A DNA stretch of 64,000 nt from Branchiostoma lanceolatum (taxonomy: Eukaryota; Chordata; Leptocardii; Amphioxiformes; Branchiostomatidae), in assembly GCF_035083965.1 (NCBI RefSeq), contig NC_089725.1, positions 27,599,925-27,663,924 on the forward strand. The letters are read 5' to 3'. Of the stretch, positions 34,001 through 43,000 are shown in pieces. A program made the translations under genes and the position numbers. Position 1 is the stretch's first letter; every line of letters begins with the position of its first letter. The notes beneath the pieces are model-generated. The model saw only the letters and a program-made list of their open reading frames with translations, did no database searches and had not been told where the DNA came from.

Positions 34001-37000
34001 TAGTTACTGGGATCAAACAGCTCAGCAGTCGAGGCAGCTACTGGCCGGAGGGAGTCCTCTAACATCCCACAAGCCTGAAAAATCAACAGTAAAAGTAGAT
34101 TCTGAATTAAAAGATAATCATGTAAGAAACAAAAAGACAATTAAAACAAAAGTTCTAATTCTGTACGCACCTGTACCCCCCCAGACTTACAGGCTATAAT
34201 GCTTCCATATCGGGGTGAAGATCTAACAACTACAAGACTTAGTGAAACATCCCAACAACGTCTACATTGGGGATAGATCTCAATAAAATGCATATTAAGG
34301 ATCTCTTGGTGTACACATATTTTCAGCTTTTGTTACTTGTCTACTAGTATATTCAATTTTGTGGCTTTATCAATAAGAGTCAGTATCGTTTGATTTTACG
34401 AATATAAACATTCCATTGTTCGGAAGTGAATAGACCAGTTTACAATAGGCGCTGCCTTCCTCGACTAAAGATGGTATCCGGGTATAATGCTTGCATATAC
34501 ATGGATACGGGGAAAGAAGAAATGTTCACAGTGACTTATAGCTATTTCCCCGCGAACTTAAAACCATCGCGAAAATGTTCTGTCCTCTGCCCGCTTACCC
34601 TCTTGTTTCAACCGTGAACTTGATTTAAAACCACCACGAACACTGTCTCCCCTTTATACCGCTAAATTGAATCCCTGCGAACATTTCCCGTTTTACAGTA
34701 CCTCCGACAGAAAAAACATACAAAAATAAGTGAAAACTAGAAATGGTGTCGACTAATTAAAATACTCTTAGTACCTTGTATCCTATGCTAATATCTTGGT
34801 CACAATCGCGGCACCGACTGTCCGTCCTCCCTCACGGATGGCAAACCGCAGCCCTTTTTCCATGGCGATGGGAGAGATCAGCGTTATTGTCAGCAAAACG
34901 TTATCTCCCGGCATAACCATGTCCTGTGGAAAACGAGGAAGGTAAAAAATCATCAATCATTTTCTTACATGTATATAGCGGGGCATTATGGGCTAAGCAC
35001 ATGATGGTATGTTTTCATATTTCAGTAACAATCTCAGATCATCTTTCCAACAAAGACCAATCTGCTCGCACTTATTCATAACTAAATTATGCCATATCGT
35101 TTCCATTAGCTACAAATGTATATAATAGCAACTACAGTCACTGTACTCATATCTGAATTTTTGTCAGAATTTTTTGTCAAGACTTCAATCTACTTTTTAA
35201 AGACAAAAGCTCAATCTCTGACTACGGGAAAGAAACGGCTGAAGAAATGATGCTTTGCTTAATTAAAGAGACTGACTAGAAGAAGATCATCAAGCACCAA
35301 CTAAACTTCCTGGGACACACCTCTAGAGCCACACCCACCCAGGAAGTGGTCAAACTGGTTTCCTCAGCTCCAGACCCAACCTGGAGGCACCCTAGAGGCC
35401 GTCCCAGGAGCAAATGGGAGGACCAAGTGTTCAATGTGCTGGACACTCTGGGAGTCAGCAGAGCCGACTGGAGAGCTCTGGCCGAAAACAGAACATCCTG
35501 GAGGGAGATGTCTGCAGCCGCCATGCATCTGCCCTGATGCCTGCGGTTGATTGATTGACTCAGAGGTAGATATGACGGCTTATGTTTGCACAACTCACCG
35601 TGCCCTTTGGAAGTTGGACGGATCCTATGACGTCCGTGGTCCGAAAGTAGAACTGAGGTCGATACCCATTGAAAATCGGCATGCGAGGTCCGCCTTCGTC
35701 TGTACCCAAGACGTACACCTGAATATGCACACAAACAAAAACAAGGATTAAGGATGTCATCTTTGCAACTCATTGAAACTGATTTAGTGCATACAGTAGC
35801 TTAAAGGCACCCAGAGCATTTTATGAGGCTTGAAAAAATATTCTAATTGCTGTAATCTTGATGAAATGGCACTGTTTACCACATTTGCGTGCGGATTTCT
35901 TATCAAAAGTGCTCAAAAGCGGTACAAAAATAAGCTACATGGTGATCTTTTAGTGTCACGCGCCTAGTGTGAATAGACCGATACCATAGCCCCGCCCACC
36001 TCCGTCAAAACGTAGAAATGCAAAATCAATACATAAAGATGCAAATTTTTGACGGACTTGCAGTCGCTCTCTCATTGGTCGAACCGCTAATTGTGATGGA
36101 CAGTCAGGATCAGTCTATTAGGGCTTGGATATTGTATCATTTCTCACCACAAAACGACATCGTATCTTTGCTCCACCTGTAATGTCGCTATGTAATGGTA
36201 TAGTTTTATCAAAAATACTATAGGAATGACTAGAAATCAGAGTTTTTTTATTCAAGATTCAAGCCTAATAAAATGCTCTGGATGCCTTTAAGAGATCACA
36301 CCTGTCCACAACTTCATGACGGTCTAAGGCCTCATATCAGTACCGTCAAACACCTTCAAGCTGGAGAGGTGGAAAGAGGCAACAACAAGACATTACCATG
36401 GCCACCTCCGAGCGAGTCAGTTCCCCCAGGAGCAGACCTACCGAGGAGACACTGGGTCACCCACAACAGAGCCAGATCAAAGGCAGCAAGGACCGGCAAC
36501 AACATGCTGAGATGGGGCAAGGCTGTCTGCAGTCTGCCCGTGCAGGGAAGACCCCCCCCCCCCCCAAATCATACAGCACCTCCTACAGAACTGTAAACTT
36601 GGCCCAACATGTACAGACGGTGATTGACGAGAGGCAAACCTATAAGAGCCCGCCAATGGATACAGAACTGGAGCGACAGGATATGATGATGATGATGAGC
36701 ATACAATTTGATATCCCTTATCTGAAAGCCACACTAGCACTCACTACACCTACCTCTGCTTGAAATTTAGTATGAGGAGTGATGGTTCCAGGCTTGGCCA
36801 ACACCTGGCCACGTTCCACCTCATCCTTCTTCGTACCTTTCAGCAGGATACCGACATTATCACCAGCAATGCCTTTGTCCAGCTGTTTCTGAAACATCTC
36901 AACACCTACACAAACAGTGATTTAACTCACTTAGTCTTCTGTGAAAGCAAAACAATGTGACGGAAAGGTTCTGTGACGTTTTGAAGAATGGATGATAATT

Positions 37001-40000: not shown

Positions 40001-43000
40001 AGAAGGACTTTATATATAGATACAGAATTTCAGGAGCCCTCGAAAAGGCAGACAGTCGTCAAAGCACAATCTGCAACCAGAGTTTCATGAAAACAGAACT
40101 GATAGTCTATGGCGCGCAGACAACCAACATCACTTCTAGTCTGTGATACTTTTTTTTTTTTCAACCTTTTTTAACCTTGAAAGTATGCAAAACATACACT
40201 CATTCGGCCGAGGCCGTTTTTCCAGAGTTCAAGAGTGGAGATCAGGGGTCCTTTCAACGTACCATCGGAAAATAGAACATAAATCGTTATACAAAGATAA
40301 CGTTACAATCAGTATTCCAATACTAAATTCAATATGTGAGGAAGATCCCTTACGTGTTGTGCACAGAGCGGCAGTAAGCGTGGTTTTTCCATGATTCTCT
40401 TGGCCGATGGTTCCTACATTCACGTTGGGCTTGGTCACCTCCCTGCTACGCTCCAACTTCTACAAAAATTGAAATGAAAAAAAGACAAGTTACACAACAA
40501 CTCCAGAGAATGTGCTGGAAATAGAATAGATAAAGCCAATATCTCTAAATTTTGTTTTAAACATTATCAAGTCGACATTTTGAACGTTGCTCGTTACCAA
40601 TCGTCAATTCACTAGTTAAGGGTTTCAAAGCAAAAGAGTACAGTAGAGTCAGTAACAACTTAGGTGACCAACTTGTCTTGATTTTGAAGAGAGACTCCTA
40701 GAGATTTAGACGTACAACTGCATGCCATACAGTAGCATTTTCCACAACTACCCATTTGACAATCATATAGTAAATGATAGTGTATGAACATAAGAACACA
40801 GACTGAGGAACTTTTCCATTGCCTCAAGAAATGGTGTGCATTATCCAAAAGTAATTGCCTAGAATCAGGCATGTACACTGTTGGGCAAACATGATCTATC
40901 TAGTAGATTAAACTGGCACGAAGACACCTAAGTATACACAGAATAACTTTATTGCGCAACATGTACAAAGAACAACAAAGTTAAGGGACAAAAAGGGTAA
41001 AAAAGTCAATAGAATTTTATATATCATGAGCAGATTAGCCTGAAGAGGGTGTAGGACAGACGAAAACAGACTGAAGTAAGTTACAAATGTTAGATTATCA
41101 ATGATGACTTACCTCTATTGCCCTCCTAAGCCACATGTTTGTAGATGCAAGCTAAAATGGACGTGAAAAAAATAGTAACTTGGTACACTTGTATATCAAC
41201 CAGGAAAAGTTTGTGTTACTCGAGCGCCAACTTAAGCTATCATTTTCTGCTGCAAAAATTAGGTAAATACAATATGTCTCGCCTGGAAAAAGACCTAATC
41301 ACTCTGTCCAAATATAAATGAATAAAGCTATACTCAGACGATCTGTGTAGTTAATGTACTTGATATAAGAACTTTAAGTATTTAGGCATCAATCATAAAA
41401 GATAAAATACTCATGTCTAATATACACATCGTAATCATGATGAATGTTACTTTAATTGATAAAGAGGAGTGTTCGTAGGTCTACTGAAAGAAACATCCTA
41501 CCCTTGTATATAGATCCACCTTGTCTGCGTCTGAAAATGGAATAACAATGGTGATGTTGCAGCAGACCTTACAAGGGTTAACTTAATGTATCTCCTAGCC
41601 ATGCGCCCATTCAGCCAAGTCTCATTTGTTAGAGATAGTTTAGAATGTTTTGAAGGAGTAACACTGATTTGTTAAGGAATGTTAAACTTGATGGACACAT
41701 TTTGTTCGAGTTTACTTTCGTATACCTTTTAATCATGCAAATTTATTAATGGCAATGGGAACTTTAAGGACTTTATGGTATCCCTTGTCCAATCACACCC
41801 AGCTTTTTGAAATGAACATAAACACAGACTTTGTTGGTACATAGTAAATAATTAATCGCATTCTCTTTTCAATTTGTACAAGTCAGTTGTACAGTTCCAA
41901 ACCCCATGGCCAATACCCCCCAAAAAAGGGCACCCATAGGGAAAATGCAGCCATAGAGGATAGAATAATCTGTCCACTGAGTCTTTCTCCAGCAGTGTCT
42001 GAGTAAAGATGATACAGATAAAGTATCTTTAGTGAAGATCGACTCACCTTTAGCCTCTCCTTGAGCGGCGAAAACGACTGCCAGGATCACAGCAATCCCC
42101 ACGATGTGACGAATGGCCATGCTTTTTCCCACTGTTCCTCTCTGATTTTTCTGAACAAAAATAAAAGATTATCTTATTTGAGCTATCATAGACTAGCTAA
42201 TCCCAAACAAAGAAACCTAAGTCTAGTCTACAATATCTTTCTTAAGGGCTTATTAAATTCTGTCATTTGACAAGATAGACTTCATTACGCCACGATAAAC
42301 TTAAAACTAAAGTGTTCTCCATATTATCAATAAAATGGATTTAGATCGTTCTTTTACATGGTCAAACCGATCAATACTGATGATGCCTTTCAAGTGGAAG
42401 AATCTAGTCTAGAGCGCCGGGATATGTATTGGTTTGTCTCAATACCTAAAGTTGTTCAGTGCCTGTGCCCAATCAGCATTGTGAAAAGCTAAATCCTACC
42501 TTAAACATAGTTATCTCAGTCATCAATTTGGTGCCAAAAGGTGTTGAAGATGTCAGCTGTTGTCGTCGATAACCTGTTCCACTGAAGGTTTTACCTGGTC
42601 GCCTGACTTAAGTGGTGGACTGGGCATATTGTCTGCTCATTCATTTCCCCAAAGGACAATATAGATTTTTGATTGACTTATGTTAGCATTGCTCTCTGCT
42701 GATTTGTCTACATTACTGTCTTCACCCAATCACATGCATTGCATCAATGATGGTTGTATGGATTATACATTTTTGTTGCTGCGTAAAATGTGCTTAGTAA
42801 ATGTCTGTCGAAAACGTAAAGGAGATTTTGGTGACAAGTGTTTTCAGCGTTTTGCATAACAACGCTCAGTCTTTATTCCACTTGGTAAATTTTCCCTGCT
42901 CAGTAAAATTCCAGTTTCCACTTGAACGCACATGACTTGTATTCATAACAGTTATAGTTAAAGTGTCCACAACTCTCATTCTATTGCGTTGATTGGTCAA

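Follow-up and report, generated by a model that had tools for sequence, protein, structure and literature searches.

A spliced, Vibrionaceae-like EF-Tu gene within PCNX4 of Branchiostoma lanceolatum: a candidate secreted binding protein with altered GTPase residues

Informational genes, EF-Tu among them, are expected to be transferred into animals only rarely and to be difficult to put to use there. EF-Tu is a core bacterial translation factor in which His84 is catalytic, a change of Asp21 is predicted to raise the barrier, and Thr61 touches the gamma-phosphate (PMC4620562; PMC6950810). Bacterial EF-Tu is also described as a surface protein that binds plasminogen and factor H (PMC3842364; PMC6822514). 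An animal member of the superfamily is the metazoan mitochondrial elongation factor TUFM. No description of a lancelet EF-Tu transfer was found in the open-licence PubMed Central literature, judged by listings.

The EF-Tu gene considered here lies in the window, i.e., the whole stretch of 64,000 nucleotides of DNA that was analysed from the lancelet B. lanceolatum, which is distantly related to vertebrates. Its product resembles bacterial EF-Tu (TIGR00485, Vibrionaceae) in its three domains, with 73% identity to the best Vibrio row, in the nucleotide motifs, and in a largely conserved aminoacyl-tRNA pocket. It differs in its introns, in the roughly 53 residues of N-terminal leader and linker that precede the EF-Tu body, and in the loss of V20, D21, T61, C81, and H84. 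TUFM shares the superfamily with the window protein but, unlike it, groups with alphaproteobacteria and keeps V20, D21, T61, and H84. The moonlighting surface EF-Tu of bacteria (PMC6822514) acts as a binding protein outside the cytosol, the role proposed for the window protein; however, it is the ordinary translation factor, whereas in the lancelet a distinct animal gene encodes an EF-Tu with a leader. We consider it probable that the gene encodes a domesticated, secreted, hydrolysis-dead EF-Tu-fold binding protein, derived from a Vibrionaceae-like tuf gene and holding a non-translational job. The signal-peptide-like leader, the GTPase residue losses, and the further lancelet copies are new relative to the original prediction.

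The gene occupies positions 34783-42120 of the window on the minus strand, with 12 exons, and all 11 introns are GT-AG (Table 1). The joined exons amount to 1323 nt, i.e., 440 codons plus a stop, with zero internal stops, and the protein carries the Pfam domains PF00009, PF03144, and PF03143 at residues 58-247, 271-340, and 344-438, respectively, and scores 639 bits against the NCBIfam equivalog TIGR00485 (cut-off 522), so that the single spliced EF-Tu frame first proposed from the letters holds. A chance open reading frame was set aside because the frame is intact and spliced, phmmer gave E 7.9e-195 against the sequence of a solved EF-Tu structure, and a second B. lanceolatum record (P0001) encodes the same protein complete with its leader. 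The antisense position inside PCNX4 intron 8 was likewise borne out: the B. lanceolatum PCNX4 protein P0221 is present in the window over 1219/1219 residues, in nine tblastn blocks on the plus strand, with block 8 ending at 32272 and block 9 starting at 45978, and these two flank the EF-Tu gene on the opposite strand. The Pfam Pecanex_C score of PCNX4 exon 8 is 25.9 bits, slightly below the 27-bit cut-off. At gathering thresholds, Rfam gave no match within the window.

Table 1. Features of the EF-Tu gene and its PCNX4 surroundings (window positions).
Feature	Position	Strand	Content and evidence
PCNX4 exon 8	32086..32272	+	Acceptor in sequence; tblastn P0221 100% over 63 residues
PCNX4 intron 8	32273..45977	+	GT...AG, contains the EF-Tu gene; sequence, tblastn
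EF-Tu exon 12	34783..34923	-	Domain 3, C-terminus KILA and stop (Pfam)
EF-Tu exon 11	35599..35718	-	Domain 3 (Pfam)
EF-Tu exon 10	36754..36905	-	Domain 2, domain 3 start (Pfam)
EF-Tu exon 9	37277..37381	-	Domain 2 (Pfam)
Nested palindrome	37464..37881		Transposon-like, within EF-Tu intron 8; inverted repeats with arms of 84 and 80 nt
EF-Tu exon 8	38360..38486	-	G domain end, beginning of domain 2 side
EF-Tu exon 7	39132..39293	-	G domain; NKCD and SAL motifs retained
EF-Tu exon 6	39430..39534	-	G domain
EF-Tu exon 5	39697..39860	-	Switch I (RGIII, T61I) and switch II (DSPGN, H84N)
EF-Tu exon 4	40354..40459	-	EF-Tu body begins; P-loop GQENHGKT (bacterial GHVDHGKT)
EF-Tu exon 3	41113..41151	-	39 nt, linker, 13 residues; same residues in P0001
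EF-Tu exon 2	41502..41530	-	29 nt, leader/linker, 10 residues; same residues in P0001
EF-Tu exon 1	42048..42120	-	Start codon and signal-peptide-like leader, 24 residues
PCNX4 exon 9	45978..46226	+	Coding part, then stop codon; tblastn P0221; Pfam Pecanex_C 62.1 bits

The window protein and P0001 both carry H84N, T61I, and D21N, and the window protein has further changes at hydrolysis or switch sites, V20E and C81S. The nucleotide-binding residues lysine 24, threonine 25, and aspartate 80 are retained, as are DxxG, NKCD, and SAL. At the positions that we took to form the aminoacyl-tRNA pocket, H66, E215, D216, F218, T228, N273, and R288 are unchanged, while V217I and S219T are changed. Of the 194 columns with near-invariant residues across 79 bacteria, 31 are changed in the window protein, compared with a bacterial median of 0 and a maximum of 9. 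These changes fall more often in the G domain (21/99 against 9/87 in domains 2 and 3, p 0.048), with the same direction in P0001 (23/99 against 8/87, p 0.011) and in the B. belcheri row P0080 (8/99 against 0/87), and the opposite direction in TUFM (11/99 against 24/87).

P0001 is identical to the window protein at 426/440 residues, and its EF-Tu and PCNX4 each lie on a contig of 31,719,604 bases. The 14 differences in 440 residues, against 11 in 545 for PCNX4 blocks 5 and 6, suggest that the constraint on EF-Tu may be slightly weaker than that on PCNX4. An unlikely reading is a transferred tuf gene in decay, captured, spliced, and perhaps once expressed, but under relaxed selection toward a pseudogene and with a leader without a role, for which these within-species differences would speak together with the lost core GTPase residues and a long branch of 0.61 to 0.70 changes per column. 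Against decay, the frame and splice sites are intact in the window, P0001 encodes a full-length protein, domain 2 is changed at only 1/39 near-invariant residues, and residues 1-53 differ from P0001 at one position. Furthermore, the changes relative to Vibrio avoid the sites conserved in bacteria (31/194 in the conserved half against 71/191 in the variable half, p 3.1e-6), which argues that selection maintained the EF-Tu fold along at least some of the branch. P0001 is from the same species as the window, and the constraint evidence is that of B. lanceolatum. An AlphaFold model of P0001 from an 18-row alignment had a mean pLDDT of 64.2, a pTM of 0.57, and a leader below 50, and no inference was drawn from it.

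An indication of a secreted form comes from exon 1, whose leader looks like a signal peptide in both hydropathy and helical moment. The protein's most hydrophobic 11-mer lies within it (KD 3.39, against a best value of 2.3 beyond residue 30), together with a strong hydrophobic stretch of about 14 residues at positions 6-19 and a low helical moment of 0.07 over residues 6-23. Against the secreted form, the 440-residue window protein has no N-glycosylation sequon. A membrane-tethered or ER-lumen EF-Tu, in which the leader would be a signal anchor and the body would face the lumen or the outside while staying attached, appears rather doubtful. It could draw on the same hydrophobic stretch and on the P0001 gene model, which begins 13 residues before the window protein start and would lengthen the region preceding that stretch; however, the stretch is short, it ends in AAQGEA, which suits cleavage under the -3,-1 rule, and the C-terminus KILA is no ER-retention signal. 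The P0001 start, together with an acceptor-like TTTTTGTTCAG ending at 42151 before exon 1, makes an additional upstream exon of the window gene possible; the exon implied by the first residues of P0001 had no match in the window with two patterns.

It is very unlikely that the gene took over from TUFM in the mitochondrion or works alongside it there. The P0001 record carries the TUFM name, and the pocket residues are mostly kept; however, the hydrolysis residues are lost, and a hydrophobic leader with a low helical moment is untypical of a presequence. The bacterial origin of the gene corrects the TUFM label of that record.

The original prediction had claimed a bacterial rather than mitochondrial EF-Tu and had proposed a phylogeny with bacterial EF-Tus and TUFM as the check; the trees place the protein in a Vibrionaceae and lancelet grouping, not with TUFM. 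The window protein is 73.3% identical to the best-matching Vibrio row and 49.6% identical to bovine TUFM. The window protein groups with Vibrionaceae and lancelet rows in the 93-row tree (97/94), with Vibrionaceae and other lancelet EF-Tus in the 39-row tree (98/97), and within a 16-row set of Vibrionaceae and lancelet rows in the 40-row tree (99/97), in which TUFM joins five alphaproteobacteria (100/99). An alphaproteobacterial placement was rejected (p 0.003; 39 rows, alphaproteobacteria alone), as were, in the 40-row tree, the window protein held with TUFM and alphaproteobacteria (p 0.0014) and paired with TUFM alone (p 0.00025). It is highly improbable that the gene is a diverged metazoan TUFM paralogue whose likeness to bacterial EF-Tu would come from convergence or slow evolution, and a TUFM origin was set aside on the 40-row rejection; the contrary result is that, with 93 rows, pairing with a single long-branched bovine TUFM was not rejected (p 0.273), and the 39- and 40-row sets were selected after this result was seen. 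The tree of domains 2 and 3 alone does not group the window protein with Vibrionaceae. The mitochondrial alternative in the rows was bovine TUFM, and they included neither plastid nor cyanobacterial EF-Tu. All trees were built without five of 80 bacterial loci (L039, L041, L045, L064, and L075) that the motif filter missed; by their titles, these are mostly alphaproteobacteria-like, so the alphaproteobacterial group (5 rows) is thinner than possible. For the 93-row tree, nine further rows that were unplaced or came from outside Pseudomonadota were deliberately omitted; the 39- and 40-row trees lack P0080, and no tree includes the 290-residue fragment P0173. From the Vibrionaceae grouping and the rejected mitochondrial and alphaproteobacterial placement in the 40-row tree, a transferred bacterial tuf gene with a Vibrionaceae-like source is supported.

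Bacterial contamination of the assembly, which the likeness to Vibrio EF-Tu might suggest and which had been discounted from the start, is negligibly probable and was set aside in view of the eleven GT-AG introns, the flanking PCNX4 exons, P0001, and a DNA identity to a Vibrio tuf of 67% overall and 36% at third positions. The locus shows what is looked for in a horizontally acquired gene, namely, integration in a host chromosome, introns, and a flanking host gene. Of the claimed ancient transfer with later introns, the bacterial tuf origin and the introns stand on the trees and the exon join, while its age can be suggested only by the saturated third positions, the eleven introns, and the long branch, at a locus seen in two records of one species.

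Other bacterial-type EF-Tus are found in Branchiostoma (P0069, P0072, P0080, P0105, P0186, P0187, and the fragment P0173), Vibrio-related like the window protein. Six lie on contigs measuring 3.8 to 21.3 Mb, with no contig given for P0173. The copies included in the trees belong to the same Vibrionaceae-lancelet set. All seven are without the window-type leader, and the rows compared keep V20, D21, and H84, unlike the window protein. P0069 carries T61S, and the pocket of P0186 is changed at H66S, E215K, V217T, F218Y, S219D, and N273V. In the 39-row set, seven lancelet rows constrained to one clade gave p 0.041, weak evidence against a single capture and no proof of several; one clade of the window protein, P0001, and P0105 was not rejected (p 0.305).

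For the preferred reading, a secreted binding protein, the following course can be envisaged. A Vibrionaceae-like tuf gene would have entered the lancelet germ line, gained introns and leader exons, and been retained for a non-translational role. The presumably transcribed gene would yield a product routed to the secretory pathway, with the 23-residue leader cleaved or kept as an anchor. Guanine nucleotide binding would be retained through lysine 24, threonine 25, aspartate 80, NKCD, and SAL, while GTP hydrolysis and EF-Tu-type switching would be lost through V20E, D21N, T61I, C81S, and H84N. The protein would then serve outside the cytosol as a binder that exploits the known tendency of EF-Tu to stick to host ligands, with defence or the handling of Vibrio-type bacteria as the most likely setting. 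Against a pure surface binder, the aminoacyl-tRNA pocket is mostly kept, which such a binder would not need. More speculatively, and with little confidence, lancelets may have assembled, from tuf genes of Vibrio type and perhaps through more than one capture, a small family of EF-Tus with no part in translation, in which two EF-Tu activities are split: the window gene, secreted, with the pocket mostly kept and hydrolysis lost, and P0186/P0187, with the hydrolysis residues kept and the pocket lost. The secreted one might act against or with Vibrio-type bacteria, e.g., as a surface EF-Tu mimic.

A core bacterial translation factor is thus found fully spliced in a chordate chromosome, with some of its catalytic switch residues gone and a leader of secretion type in front. 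If confirmed, this would be a clear and testable case of an animal taking the engine out of a translation GTPase while reusing the scaffold, and with several lancelet records holding Vibrio-like EF-Tus, the steps of this reuse could be traced across species.

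The EF-Tu gene nested in PCNX4 is spliced, lies embedded in the host locus and is related to Vibrio EF-Tu; its product has a hydrophobic leader and lacks key residues of GTP hydrolysis. The original prediction of twelve minus-strand exons with GT-AG introns and an uninterrupted 440-residue frame was confirmed by re-reading and joining the exons: all 11 introns are GT-AG, exon 4 ends at 40354, and the join gives 1323 nt, that is, 440 codons and a stop. All three EF-Tu domains were found in the protein (Pfam), which is an NCBIfam EF-Tu equivalog (639 bits). Its predicted place between PCNX4 exons 8 and 9, on the opposite strand, is borne out by P0221, the pecanex-like protein 4 of B. 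lanceolatum, which gives nine plus-strand blocks. Since 1219/1219 of its residues are identically matched in the window, the window is assigned to B. lanceolatum; four of the nine blocks are 100% identical, and the others show 88.2 to 98.8% because block ends overrun exon borders.

Features of the EF-Tu gene and its PCNX4 host locus (window positions)
Feature	Position	Strand	Remarks
EF-Tu gene	34783-42120	-	
PCNX4 intron 8	32273-45977	+	GT and AG ends; encloses EF-Tu gene
Tandem repeat, 117 nt	25253-25473		overlaps PCNX4 exon 3
PCNX4 exon 8 piece, 41 nt	32223-32263		recurs 350 bases downstream
Second copy of 41-nt piece	32573-32613		98% identity
Inverted repeat	32298-32495		54-nt arms; within PCNX4 intron 8
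77-nt stretch	32383-32459		overlaps inverted repeat
Copy of 77-nt stretch	38642-38718		86%; EF-Tu intron 7
Nested palindrome	37464-37881		EF-Tu intron 8; arms 84 and 80 nt, 95 and 98% complementary; transposon-like

The inverted repeat and the overlapping 77-nt stretch, which has a copy in EF-Tu intron 7, are likely a dispersed mobile element. Another PCNX4 model, P0222, begins with several copies of the segment encoded by the 117-nt repeat and seems to include the second copy of the residues encoded by the 41-nt piece.

A different record contains this EF-Tu gene as P0001, a B. lanceolatum protein that carries the label TUFM and represents a cluster of three member sequences; 426/440 residues are identical, with a single difference over residues 1-53. 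P0001 and P0222 lie on contigs of equal size (31,719,604 bases), taken to be one chromosome. In this within-species comparison, EF-Tu differs at 14/440 residues, somewhat more than PCNX4 blocks 5 and 6 (11/545, P0222). The P0001 model starts 13 residues earlier, and the true start of the window gene may therefore be upstream.

Approximately 53 residues, encoded by exons 1-3 and the first part of exon 4, precede the EF-Tu body. No other 11-mer in the protein is as hydrophobic as residues 6-16, and the helical moment is almost nil over residues 6-23; in these sequence properties, the leader resembles a signal peptide, unlike a mitochondrial presequence. When residues 1-145 were used as query, only P0001 spanned the full stretch among the best 120 of 7805 matches, where the next highest coverage was 79%.

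The protein was compared with 75/80 bacterial EF-Tu loci (genome scan), large-database proteins, and bovine TUFM (PDB). Its highest identity is to Vibrio (73.3%; P0027, Vibrio mytili), with no more than 66.6% to five alphaproteobacteria and 49.6% to TUFM. The trees, drawn from non-cyanobacterial bacterial, lancelet, and bovine TUFM rows, place it with Vibrionaceae and lancelet rows: within a 13-row set in the 90-row tree (SH-aLRT 96), a 21-row set in the 93-row tree (97/94), and a 16-row set in the 40-row tree (99/97), and likewise in the 39-row tree (98/97). Among the lancelet rows, it pairs most closely with P0186/P0187 (93/81, 94/78, and 95/82 with 93, 39, and 40 rows, respectively). The G domain alone gives this pairing at 95/83 and the grouping with Vibrionaceae less surely (88/85); domains 2 and 3 alone fail to place the protein. 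Forcing it with alphaproteobacteria was 35 log units worse (p 0.003, 39 rows), and pairing with TUFM alone was rejected in the 40-row tree (p 0.00025) and not in the 93-row tree (p 0.273), where the TUFM branch has 2.9 changes per column; the 39- and 40-row sets were picked after the latter result. Together with the identities to Vibrio and TUFM, the rejection of TUFM plus alphaproteobacteria (p 0.0014, 40 rows) upholds the predicted bacterial rather than mitochondrial affinity. The transfer was not recent, since the gene and Vibrio tuf share 67% DNA identity and 36% at third positions, with the same codon at 99/280 common residues.

Of 194 columns near-invariant among 79 bacteria (E. coli numbering, anchored at P-loop G18), 31 are changed in the window protein, 33 in P0001, 38 in TUFM, and 5 to 12 in six other lancelet rows (bacteria: median 0, maximum 9). 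Changes from Vibrio fall on 31/194 sites of the conserved half versus 71/191 of the variable half (p 3.1e-6), which shows constraint on the remainder of the protein. Near-invariant changes are in excess in the G domain (21/99 versus 9/87 in domains 2 and 3, p 0.048), as in P0001 (p 0.011) and P0080 from another lancelet record (8/99 versus 0/87, p 0.0075); in TUFM, the contrast runs the opposite way. In the aminoacyl-tRNA pocket, H66, E215, N273, and R288 are retained, with V217 replaced by I and S219 by T. K24, T25, D80, NKCD, and SAL are also kept, while V20, D21, T61, C81, and H84 are absent. In the text available from PMC4620562, His84 is described as critical, its mutation severely impairing GTPase activity, and an Asp21 change is predicted to raise the barrier; that from PMC6950810 gives Thr61 as the sole direct switch I contact with GTP. 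The pattern appears to be a scaffold retained with the engine taken out, the domain contrast being modest.

Two EF-Tu searches (220 distinct matches among the best 120 each of 8000 and 7805) contained at least eight Branchiostoma rows (P0001, P0069, P0072, P0080, P0105, P0173, P0186, and P0187) and no other animal among the listed matches that carry a name; many carry none. A single clade of seven lancelet rows was weakly disfavoured (p 0.041). P0186 is the reverse of the window gene, with GTPase motifs kept and the pocket altered (H66S, E215K, V217T, F218Y, S219D, and N273V). P0186 and P0187 (98.7% identical), the former from B. floridae and the latter from the hybrid B. floridae x B. japonicum, are Vibrio-like EF-Tus whose GTPase motifs are intact and whose pocket is rebuilt; P0105 and P0186, both B. 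floridae, lie on contigs of equal size (17,116,508). P0173 (UniProt C3YG39, B. floridae) is identical to P0186 as far as KGR, after which it terminates in YLH, as if the model had entered an intron, a hint that the P0186 gene may also be spliced. The near-identical P0069, P0072, and P0080 come from B. belcheri and from a hybrid, B. floridae x B. belcheri, and their contigs measure 3.8 to 14.5 Mb. They have 89 to 90% identity to Vibrio, carry R58Q and T61S (read in P0069), and are perhaps a younger or separate capture. P0121 and P0122, metagenome EF-Tus of the Vibrio group, have N-terminal extensions resembling algal targeting peptides and possibly represent a further eukaryote carrying a gammaproteobacterial EF-Tu.

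No paper was found in open-licence PubMed Central on an EF-Tu gene transferred to a lancelet or to any other animal, and 'elongation factor' is absent from the main texts, as available, of PMC4284660, PMC12373286, and PMC9673378. Cell-surface bacterial EF-Tu is reported to bind plasminogen and factor H (PMC3842364, in part), and diverse extracellular functions are ascribed to it (PMC6822514, in part). On the most probable reading, the lancelet gene would be expressed and its protein would enter the secretory pathway, bind GDP or GTP without turnover, and act as an extracellular binding protein; a role in handling Vibrio-type bacteria is our guess.
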